From: Alkalibacillus aidingensis
Lineage (GTDB): Bacteria > Bacillota > Bacilli > Bacillales > Alkalibacillaceae
Length of the DNA stretch: 64,000 bases
NCBI RefSeq assembly: GCF_014595945.1
Contig: NZ_JABXWU010000001.1
Location: 248,001-312,000, forward strand
Direction: 5' to 3'
The translations under genes and the position numbers were made by a program. Positions 10,909-32,857 of the stretch are shown here, in pieces; within the stretch, counting starts at the first letter, position 1; each line of letters starts with the position of its first letter. The notes below the pieces were generated by a model that saw only the letters and a program-made list of their open reading frames with translations, was not told where the DNA came from and did not search any database.

Positions 10909-11247
10909 TAATGAATCTTAATTGACGGTAATTGCTTCGTGAGGTGGTTAAACGTTAATTAGACTGCTTCTAATTGACGGTAATAGCTTCGTGAGGTGGT
11001 TAAACGTTAATTAGACTGCTTCTAATTGACGGTGATAGCTTCGTGAGGCAGTGAAACGTTAATTAGACCACTTCTAATTGACGGTAATAGCCTCGCGAGG
11101 TAGTTAAATGTTAATTAGACCCTGTCTCATGGTCATTTTGCGCTTCATACAGAGCTAAAACAGTCTTGAGCCCCCGTCTCACGGACATTTCACGCTTCAA
11201 ACAGAGGCGAAACGTCCATGAAGACCACTTCCATCCGACGTTTTTTC
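10909..11247 (-). repeat. Six tandem 52-bp repeats plus a truncated unit
   Basis: Read on the minus strand, units start at 11220, 11168, 11116, 11064, 11012 and 10960, exactly 52 bases apart, with a partial unit at 11247-11221 in front. The last four begin AATTAACGTTTAACCACC or a close variant and contain GAAGCTAT, CCGTCAATTAGAAG. The first two are diverged and look more like the array at 31519-31986 (GACGTTTCGCC, TTTGAAGCG). The outer arms of each unit are complementary (AATTAACG with CGTCAATT, one wobble). The array lies directly 3' of the minus-strand permease. The period is not a multiple of three, so it is not coding. Confidence 0.93.
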
Positions 11248-11256
11248 CACCAAATT

Positions 11257-11313
11257 GCTCATCATATCATTGATCCCGATCACAAAGTCTGAGTAACGAA
11301 CATCATCCACCAA
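11257..11313 (-). repeat. Leader-like dispersed repeat, copy A
   Basis: On the minus strand this reads TTGGTGGATGATGTTC, then TTACTCAG, CTTTGTGATCG, TCAATG and TATGATGAGC. By manual alignment about 52 of 58 columns match copy B at 28242-28299. It begins 25 bases after the stop of the minus-strand permease and ends just before the truncated 52-bp unit. One reading frame happens to be open across it, but copy B carries an indel in that frame, so coding is unlikely. Confidence 0.85.
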
Positions 11314-11337
11314 TTGTGAACAAAAAAAGACGTCCAC

Positions 11338-28205: not shown

Positions 28206-28241
28206 AGTTAAAAATATAATTTTTCGTGACTTTTGCTTTAT

Positions 28242-28299
28242 TTGGTGGATGATGTTCATTTACTCAGGCTTTGTGATCGTGCTCAATGGTATGATGAGC
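28242..28299 (+). repeat. Leader-like dispersed repeat, copy B (solo)
   Basis: The sequence TTGGTGGATGATGTTC, TTACTCAG, CTTTGTGATCG, TCAATG, TATGATGAGC matches copy A (11257-11313, minus strand) at about 52 of 58 aligned positions. Unlike copies A and C, no 52-bp array follows it. It lies in the 196-base gap between khpA and ylqD, downstream of khpA on the same strand. Confidence 0.82.
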
Positions 28300-30044: not shown

Positions 30045-30122
30045 GCTAGTGCTTAAGTGTTCACTTAAGCTTGATAACGATGTTCCGCTACTTAAGAGGT
30101 TAAGTAAGAGCATTAGTTTGGA
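30045..30122 (+). ncRNA. Candidate bL19 autoregulatory mRNA leader
   Basis: The leader contains a perfect stem GCTTAAGTG/CACTTAAGC with a two-base loop (30051-30070), the motif GATGTTCCGCT, and a second stem TACTTAA/TTAAGTA with loop GAGG (30089-30106). Bacillaceae rplS genes are known to carry a structured L19 leader bound by bL19; position and layout fit this. I could not run a covariance model. Confidence 0.55.
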
Positions 30123-30584: not shown

Positions 30585-31433
30585 ATGACAATTCAATGGT
30601 TTCCTGGACATATGGCCAAGGCCAAACGTGAAGTCGAAGAAAAACTAAAACTAGTCGACTTAGTCGTTGAATTAGTGGATGCAAGAGCACCACTATCTAG
30701 CCAAAATCCAATGCTTCAAGAAGTGCTAGGTGATAAACAAAAACTAGTTCTATTAATGAAAAGTGACTTAGCTGATCCAAAGTTAACTCAAGCTTGGGTC
30801 GATTATTTTCACTCTCAGAACTTACACGCTTTAGCCGTTAATGTAAATAACAAAAATGATATAAAGAAAATCGTTCAACAAGCTAAGAAAATAGGCGAAG
30901 GAATTAATGAAAGACGTGTAGAAAAAGGAATTAACCCCCGGTCGTTACGTGCGATGATTATTGGTATTCCTAATGTTGGGAAGTCCACTTTAATCAATCG
31001 ATTAGTTAATAAAAAACGTGCAGAAACGGGTGATCGACCTGGTGTGACTAAACAACAACAGTGGGTCAAGGTTCAAGGTGAGTTTGAACTTTTAGATACA
31101 CCAGGAATCTTATGGCCTAAATTTGAAGACGAAGAGGTTGGTTATAAGTTAGCTGCTATTGGTACGATTAAAGACCAAATTCTGCATTTAGACGATATTG
31201 CAGTGTTCATTTTACGCTATTTAAAGGAACACGATCCGAATGCTTTAACGGAAAGATACTCATTAGACCTAGATACCGATGATATTGTTGAATGGTTTGA
31301 TTCTATTGGCAAAAAGCGTGGGTGTCTAGTTTCAGGTGGAATGGTTGATTACGATAAAGTTGCGGATATCATTATTCAAGATTTAAGAAGTGGTGATTTG
31401 GGACAGGTAACATTTGACCGAATAGAGGAATAA
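30585..31433 (+). CDS. rbgA: Ribosome biogenesis GTPase RbgA (YlqF)
   Basis: RbgA is a circularly permuted GTPase needed for late assembly of the 50S subunit, acting with uL6. The N-terminal signature [20 protein letters not shown] is present. The permuted order is G4 (MKSD at 58-61), G1 GIPNVGKST near 126, then G3 [12 protein letters not shown] near 171. The G4 motif is unusual: methionine replaces the Asn of the usual NKxD. The 282-residue length is typical. AGAGGTGAG precedes the ATG. In B. subtilis rnhB follows closely; here a repeat array lies between. Confidence 0.95.
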
Positions 31434-31468: not shown

Positions 31469-31474
31469 TGGTAT

Positions 31475-31502
31475 TTGATCGATGATGTTCATCATCACTC
31501 AG
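31475..31502 (+). repeat. Leader-like dispersed repeat, copy C (short)
   Basis: TTGATCGATGATGTTC, AT, then ACTCAG resembles the 5' part of copies A and B. It contains a small hairpin GATGAT/ATCATC with loop GTTC. The first full 52-bp unit starts 16 bases later. The match is short, so homology is less certain than between A and B. Confidence 0.55.
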
Positions 31503-31518
31503 AGAGTTCTTGGGCTTT

Positions 31519-31986
31519 CAATGACGTTTTGACACCGTGTGAAGCGAAAAACGTAAGATAGAAGCACTGTCAATGGCGTTTTGACACCGTGTGAAGCACA
31601 AAACGTAAGATAGAAGCACTGTCAATGACGTTTTACCACCGTCAGAAGCGAAAAACGTAAGATAGAAGCACTGTCAATGACGTTTTGACACCGTGTGAAG
31701 CGAAAAACGTAAGATAGAAGCACTGTCAATGACGTTTTACCATCATGTGAAGCACAAAACGTAAGAGAGAAGCAAACTCAATGACGTTTTGACACCGTGT
31801 GAAGCATAAAACGTAAGATAGAAGCACTGTCAATGACGTTTTGACACCGTGTGAAGCGAAAAACGTAAGATAGAAGCACTGTCAATGACGTTTTGACACC
31901 GTGTGAAGCGAAAAACGTAAGAGAGCAGCACTTTCAATGACGTTTCACCACCGTGAGAAGCGAAAACGTCATTGAAAAGCACCACC
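31519..31986 (+). repeat. Nine tandem 52-bp repeats
   Basis: Units start at 31519, 31571, 31623, 31675, 31727, 31779, 31831, 31883 and 31935, exactly 52 bases apart. Each starts CAATGACGTTTT (CAATGGCG in unit 2, CAATGACGTTTC in unit 9), contains GAAGC, and ends AGAAGCACTGT or a variant. Units 1, 4 and 7 are identical. The last unit keeps a perfect 12-bp dyad, TCAATGACGTTT/AAACGTCATTGA; in the others the right arm is AAAACGTAAGATAG. There are no unique spacers, and the period is not a multiple of three. It lies downstream of rbgA, same strand. Confidence 0.96.
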
Positions 31987-32080
31987 TAAAAAAAGTTACT
32001 GAACATCCTATCGCTAACTCGATATAAACAACAACGGATTTTAACAGAGAGAAAGATCAATAAAATGGGGGAGTAAAACC

Positions 32081-32857
32081 GTGAGAGGGCAGGGGACAAT
32101 AGCACAAATTAAGGAACAGATCAATCAACCAGATGTTTCAGAAGACTGGATTAAACAACTTAGACAAGACGACCGAGCTGGAGTACAAAAACTTATCAAA
32201 CAATACGATAAACGGCTGGAAGCTAAACAATTGCAATTATCCCAGTTTGAACAAATGAAACAATATGAATATAACCAACAAGCAGAAGGTTATCGGGCTA
32301 TTGCTGGAGTGGATGAAGTTGGCAGAGGTCCTTTAGCAGGCCCTGTTGTCGCTGCTTCAGTTATATTGGATATAAATGATCAGTCATTGCTAGGAATAAA
32401 TGATTCCAAAAAACTGACAGAAGAAAAACGAGCTGAGTATTTTGAAATTATCCAAAAGCAAGCTTATTCAATAGGTGTAGGAATCGTTGATAACCGTGTC
32501 ATTGATCAGATTAACATTTATGAAGCTTCTAAGAGAGCTATGCGCCTAGCTATTGAGAATATGAATTTAGAGGCTGATTTTTTACTATTAGATGCCATGA
32601 CGCTGCCAGATCTTAAAGTACCTCAGCAGTCTATTATTAAAGGGGATGCAAAAAGCATTTCAATTGCTGCTGCTAGTATTGTTGCCAAGGTAACGCGTGA
32701 CCGAATGATGAAAGATTTTAGTAAAAAATACCCAGCATTTCAGTTTGGGCAGAATATGGGTTATGGAACCAAACCACATTTAGAAGCATTACAACAATAT
32801 GGGCCAACCCCTTATCATAGAAAATCATTTAACCCCGTCTCGTTATATACCATATAA
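32081..32857 (+). CDS. rnhB: Ribonuclease HII
   Basis: RNase HII removes ribonucleotides and RNA primers from RNA-DNA hybrids. The catalytic acids are in IAGVDEVGRGPLAGPVV near residues 72-88 and in LLDAMTLP. An N-terminal coiled extension of about 70 residues is typical of the Bacillus enzyme. The start is GTG 32081, preceded by GGGGGAG at good distance. The protein has 258 residues. It follows the repeat array. Confidence 0.95.
   Translation: MRGQGTIAQIKEQINQPDVSEDWIKQLRQDDRAGVQKLIKQYDKRLEAKQLQLSQFEQMKQYEYNQQAEGYRAIAGVDEVGRGPLAGPVVAASVILDINDQSLLGINDSKKLTEEKRAEYFEIIQKQAYSIGVGIVDNRVIDQINIYEASKRAMRLAIENMNLEADFLLLDAMTLPDLKVPQQSIIKGDAKSISIAAASIVAKVTRDRMMKDFSKKYPAFQFGQNMGYGTKPHLEALQQYGPTPYHRKSFNPVSLYTI

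Follow-up and report, generated by a model that had tools for sequence, protein, structure and literature searches.

An exactly spaced 52-bp repeat array in Alkalibacillus aidingensis, its dispersed family and like-spaced arrays in other genera: candidate sites for a putative chromosomal protein

A tandem array of protein-binding repeats is exemplified by sopC, the partition site of plasmid F, each unit of which carries an inverted protein-binding site, and EFAR is an example of a bacterial MITE. BOX elements of Streptococcus pneumoniae are intergenic, dispersed and modular, with a variable number of middle modules, inverted ends and a patchy occurrence between related species (PMC3049150). 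REP/BIME repeats, which are associated with RAYTs, are palindromic, alternate in orientation and lie mostly at gene ends, with gyrase or RNA roles proposed, and the bacterial MITEs named in the same source are bcr1, RUP and EFAR (PMC3733652). The Bacillus families Bant-1, Bhal-1, Bhal-2 and bcr1 measure 72-167 bp (PMC2267715). A literature search, with most subscription papers lying outside its coverage, returned no description of such arrays, and no catalogued repeat family was found to include the array, a prospect that the earlier note on this DNA had raised.

We analysed a 64,000-nucleotide stretch of the A. aidingensis genome (the window), in which nine units follow one another at exact 52-base steps from position 31519, as the earlier note had read them and as both direct reading and TRF (period 52, 8.6 copies, 89% matches, score 716) confirmed. 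Each unit consists of a 13-bp site, a 17-bp loop, an inverted 13-bp site and a 9-bp linker (site > N17 < site N9), the site in A. aidingensis being TCAATGACGTTTT and its reversed copy TCTCTTACGTTTT. Units 1, 4 and 7 (starting at 31519, 31675 and 31831) are identical, as claimed, and the last unit does hold an exact dyad, with arms of 14 bp, slightly above the 12 bp given for it. The array was also rightly described as non-coding (zero ORFs of at least 60 aa overlap it) and as distinct from CRISPR, its tandem units lacking unique spacers in the window copy; in comparable lattices of another genus, g47, the sites are themselves variable, not near-identical as CRISPR repeats are. The array is flanked by modules and inverted ends (the short 5′ module profile was built from six loci, the window copy and five others in the genome), and the window holds two further pieces of the same family that had gone unnoticed: a second element, with a long 5′ module and six units, and a long 5′ module fragment.

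10912..11326 (about), minus strand: second element, six units (two of CGTC type, four of AATT type)
28240..28299, plus strand: long 5′ module fragment without units (nhmmer E 2.9e-08 in the searched loci)
30585..31433, plus strand: gene left of the array, presumed ylqF/rbgA-like from its relatives
31471..31522, plus strand: the element's short 5′ module (nhmmer E 1.1e-14 with a profile that includes the window copy)
31484..31496, plus strand: left terminal inverted repeat, 11/13 match to GATGTTCATTAAC
31519..31986, plus strand: nine-unit 52-bp array (repeat listing, TRF and weight-matrix scan)
31932..31977, plus strand: last unit, exact 14-bp dyad arms 31932-31945 / 31964-31977 with 18 bp between
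31961..32025, plus strand: the element's 3′ module (nhmmer E 2.1e-14 with a profile that includes the window copy)
31995..32007, minus strand: right terminal inverted repeat GATGTTCAGTAAC, 13/13
32081..32857, plus strand: gene right of the array, which we take to be rnhB-like by judgement from its sequence

Separately, a Ribosomal protein L19 leader was recognized at 30077-30116 on the plus strand (Rfam 39 bits; gathering score 36).

Searching the whole genome for the unit, as had been proposed, placed the array as one member of a dispersed family: fetched sites and a weight-matrix scan resolved 24 loci across the 2.84 Mb (blastn gave 39 matches with a 104-base query and 63 with a consensus query). 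These loci carry 1 to 11 units each (a single unit at L159), with a period of 52 almost throughout and a few steps of 51; L161 (C23, about 36 kb) is a divergent array with mixed 51/52 spacing. The majority are modular, composed of a long or short 5′ module, n × 52-bp units and a 3′ module, and the last unit often carries a fuller palindrome. Their ends are imperfect inverted repeats: among 20 loci compared (L158-L161, four loci, were left out, and the figures are raw match counts without a chance level), the left end matched at least 10 of the 13 positions of GATGTTCATTAAC in 18, and the right end matched its partner equally well in 13. Allowing one mismatch, the end pattern had 32 genome matches, many of them in other sequence, compared with 8 for the reversed pattern, and two further arrays (L220 and L230) adjoin such matches. 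According to a purpose-made ORF caller, overlapping ORFs (61-113 aa) occur at 5 of the 24 loci, and the loci are oriented in sense (9) or antisense (7) between co-directional genes, or lie between convergent (5) or divergent (3) ones. Array-like ends also enclose a different palindromic interior at L218:1015-1500 (C1:560.5 kb), parts of which adjoin L041 and L046 as well.

The consensus query had no match at E 1e-3 in the other 21 genomes of the bacterial family, five congeners included, and at five comparable sites the congeners were without the array. Between ylqF and rnhB, the gap is 648 bases here versus 52, 52 and 49 in three congeners (measured directly), and in the remaining two (reverse strand) 64-67 bases separate the matched gene ends. 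The other four gaps, for which we assigned the gene names by judgement, are 454 here versus 77, 293, 85, 84 and 85 in congeners (rpsA-der); 414 versus 124, 123, 471, 160 and 168 (sigF-spoVAA); 748 versus 537, 423, 457, 364 and 364 (tuf-rpsJ); and 713 versus 217, 217, 238, 238 and 217 (polC-rimP). By eye, the congener gaps of 293 and 471 contain another palindromic repeat. Empty sites were sought in seven flank comparisons, and those at ileS-lspA and at the ppa site yielded none. The congeners are too diverged for a firm target-site duplication call, and inverted ends are seen in part of the loci. Also by eye, G002 and G004 have a different tandem repeat of ~20 bp with a TTTATCAGCGCTC core in the array's place between tuf and rpsJ (L234 and L236).

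From these comparisons, insertion in the A. aidingensis lineage is the simpler reading than loss in the congeners, and the arrays of this genome look like modular mobile elements that share with MITEs imperfect inverted ends, no coding capacity and empty sites. A selfish element of BOX or MITE type, in which the inner units would be structural or passengers with no host reader and a putative transposase would act on the ends, would account for the modular build, the variable unit number, the inverted ends (left in 18/20 and right in 13/20 loci), the empty sites and the similar ends around another interior at L218. We nevertheless consider it a rather unlikely full explanation, because the lattice geometry is common to genera with other ends (by eye, the 13 arrays inspected in g73 and g66 showed no such ends) and the site cores are conserved relative to the loops. 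Neither the end-pattern search nor 16 fetched stretches revealed, by eye, a transposase with matching ends.

The proposal of a REP-like mobile repeat fared well as regards dispersal, to which the inverted ends and empty sites attest, and poorly as regards REP/RAYT membership. Mobilization of REP/BIME-like repeats by a RAYT (Y1 transposase) is improbable in our estimation, even though the genome has one Y1 transposase gene (L216:1471-2046, contig C12), the five array-free congeners have none, and the encoded protein scores 79.8 bits against the NCBIfam REP-associated tyrosine transposase (cut-off 80). Also in its favour, a Y1 transposase gene in G056 (L374:7220-7987) adjoins an eight-site lattice, and 13 of 22 g47 arrays have REP-like cores, by an ad hoc pattern, no more than about 100 bp away. 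The gene in A. aidingensis, however, is flanked by a different, GTGCCTGTCACTTCCC-type repeat, the core of which occurs in 2 of 40 stretches of this genome, one being the RAYT locus itself; no lattice chain occurs within the 12-kb region around that RAYT; and long lattices are unlike tagged REPs of 20-40 bp. As a mover, the RAYT looked promising until the flanking repeat proved different.

Beyond this species, further genera of the order show the layout too. With the linker left free at 7 to 37 bases (period 39-69; no mismatch, both strands counted), a two-unit pattern matched 23 of 397 genomes in 11 of 136 genera, with one control match; among the matches listed, 148 of the 150 places had a length of 84, corresponding to a period of exactly 52, the exceptions being two places at one locus with a length of 81 (period 49). 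When the loops were left free instead (5 to 35, linker fixed), 11 of 28 hand-picked genomes (23 array carriers, A. aidingensis included, plus 5 others) matched, and all matches listed had a length of 84 save one locus at 83; each of these tests keeps the other gap fixed. Under strict filters, a sequence-only model of the unit matched just 2 of the 397 genomes, A. aidingensis and G084 of another family, in which TRF reported period-52 arrays of 23.8 and 20.3 copies. When GACNTTT and its inverse were searched as a fixed two-unit pattern that tolerated two mismatches at most, 51 of 397 genomes in 29 of 136 genera matched; as 8 control matches were also single, single matches are background, and at least five matches over both strands were found in 28 genomes of 16 genera (the sequence was inspected for part of the positive genomes). 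Presence of this pattern was patchy, with 1 of 6 congeners and 3 of 8 g47 genomes positive; in g73, 9 of 9 genomes were positive. Forty fetched stretches of other genera, themselves located by a 26-bp pattern, contained 39 chains of four exact sites at step 26 only (steps 18-35 tried), and 44 of 49 arrays in other genera had no overlapping ORF of at least 90 aa. By raw counts, the genes flanking these 49 arrays were tandem in 22 cases, convergent in 18, divergent in 4 and of unknown arrangement in 5; REPs are likewise described as scarce between divergent genes. The 80 named ylqF loci (852,047 bases) contained no chain of three exact sites. Among viral contigs, one matched a GACATTT pattern and none matched the unit pattern. 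A plasmid or phage origin was also considered and dropped, blastn giving no match for three arrays against plasmids or for one against phages.

In g73 (21 genomes), half of the loci next to a YitT-like gene (10 of 20) and half of those fetched next to cydB (5 of 10) carry at least three lattice steps; between G297 and G406 the difference is one unit at the former locus and four at the latter. Beside cydB in G404, a tandem array with a 53-bp unit of other sequence (L414) occurs where related species have the 52-bp lattice. Whole-unit differences between close species, together with the near homogeneity of some arrays, would fit a neutral tandem satellite that grows by slippage and whose likeness between genera reflects old descent or chance, and homogenized arrays can keep their period through copying alone. 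Yet the loops have diverged at unchanged length, the cores are conserved and reversed-pattern controls were almost empty, and of all the readings weighed here a satellite seems to us the most improbable.

Conservation within the unit was followed in g47, whose 13-bp site is TCTSTKACNTTTT (184 sites). Scoring sites without any spacing rule (leave-one-locus-out) recovered 185 sites there, compared with 28-32 for column-shuffled matrices, and of 144 neighbour distances up to 120, 135 fell at either 30 (76) or 22 (59), the spacing evidence being partly ascertained since these lattice loci were picked by an exact-52 pattern; the same method gave 75 at 30 and 57 at 22 among 148 distances in A. aidingensis (L161 left out). 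Loops of g47 are nearly random (identity 0.300 versus 0.264 shuffled). Across three groups of homologous g47 copies, picked by eye, cores differed at 28/480, 3/80 and 45/480 positions (4-9%) and loops at 110/408, 20/68 and 202/408 (27-50%), with differences at 27/144, 12/24 and 65/144 for degenerate site positions and 38/216, 18/36 and 126/216 for linkers, and with zero length change. The dyad arms are evidently constrained, where the earlier note had allowed for random unit variation without such constraint. Loop centres were AT-rich in four of five groups (0.83 versus 0.53 in g47; 0.52 versus 0.43 in g73, P = 0.001; 0.52 versus 0.37 in A. aidingensis; also richer in a mixed group, at P = 0.046; g71 showed no such enrichment, P = 0.68), and a 10.4-bp Fourier term was the biggest of three tested in all six groups, with a contribution from the fixed site letters.

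We also asked whether the array acts as a serially folded RNA, that is, as tandem hairpins with transcription through the array. In A. aidingensis, the arms of the units pair in 87.7% of cells versus 85.3% when shuffled (0 of 500 shuffles reach 87.7%; slid versions reach at most 43.7%), with 7 cells changed on both sides; folding of the whole element beats that of shuffled sequence on either strand (z = -3.57 and -2.71); and on the plus strand the variable column 34 yields G-C or G-U. Any inverted repeat would give such pairing and folding, however, a protein-read palindrome included. In g47, the degenerate positions 4, 6 and 9 are unpaired across the loop (19, 30 and 27 of 70 versus 25.6, 35.7 and 28.4), two of 12 pairing tests reaching P = 0.014, one across the loop (position 10) and one across the linker (position 9). 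RNAalifold found zero consensus pairs on the unit alignment, no Rfam family reached its gathering score over the array, element direction is mixed relative to co-directional genes, and RNA offers no reason for an exact 52. The signals in A. aidingensis fit a protein-read palindrome too; the g47 result tips the balance, and a folded RNA, one of the roles first suggested, is disfavoured and in our judgement quite improbable.

Among the three roles that had been suggested, a multi-site protein-binding array is the best supported, with site, orientation and spacing kept across genera while loops are free, although the protein itself is still putative. Site, orientation, spacing and a mostly intergenic position are directly observed, as is the conservation of cores over spacers in one other genus. 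A spacing that stays fixed while the spacer sequence varies, sites that are conserved yet tolerate change at some positions, and phasing in whole turns together argue for DNA that is read by protein, and we regard it as an even call that the array represents a lattice of helically phased sites for a putative sequence-specific chromosomal protein. The suggestion that 52 bp approximates five helical turns fits (52/5 = 10.4). Each unit presents two 13-bp sites in opposite directions, separated by 17-bp and 9-bp spacers of largely free sequence and fixed length, and the 7-bp cores lie 26 bp (2.5 turns) apart and like-oriented sites 52 bp (5 turns) apart. A protein dimer or polymer might read these sites on one side of the helix, perhaps aided by phased AT steps, and the phasing would be what selection keeps. 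Counting against exact spacing are the period of 49, some steps of 51, the 51/52 array at L161 and the 53-bp array in G404, and a scan of 20 neighbour proteins for a conserved binding protein gave nothing recurrent. Also weighing against the protein reading are the patchy presence, the ability of homogenized arrays to hold a period through copying, and the arm pairing and folding in A. aidingensis, which an RNA or cruciform would predict. In A. aidingensis, the lattice appears to spread inside BOX/MITE-like elements with imperfect inverted ends, and it may serve either the host or the element.

The same layout in other genera of the order hints at a shared putative DNA-binding partner. More tentatively, and possible rather than probable, the arrays could be Bacillales-wide scaffold sites, on which a putative shared protein would pair or polymerize along a 26-bp alternating lattice and bend or wrap intergenic DNA in whole 52-bp turns, organizing the chromosome or its supercoiling, the sites having drifted with the protein while the geometry stayed fixed. 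If the geometry does reflect a binding protein, it would point to a sequence-specific chromosomal system that has gone unnoticed across many genera of a single order, and the exactness of the 26/52-bp lattice would make its mechanism directly testable. Even if the arrays are selfish, they would show that what a bacterial repeat family conserves can be DNA geometry, not sequence.

Compared with known systems, the arrays share with sopC a tandem series of units that each contain an inverted site, and differ from that single plasmid site in being many and chromosomal and in having another unit length. They resemble bacterial MITEs (bcr1, RUP and EFAR) in being short and non-coding with inverted ends and empty sites, and differ in their inner lattice of variable copy number and in that no parental transposase was found in the stretches inspected. 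Like REP/BIME repeats, they are palindromic, alternate in orientation and lie mostly at gene ends; unlike them, they set 13-bp sites at a fixed 26/52-bp spacing with free loops, and the RAYT here accompanies another repeat. With BOX they share intergenic dispersal, inverted ends, patchiness between related species and an A-B(n)-C arrangement with a variable number of middle modules, a likeness of construction and not of membership, whereas the middle unit here is a 52-bp two-site lattice with a geometry that recurs in other genera.
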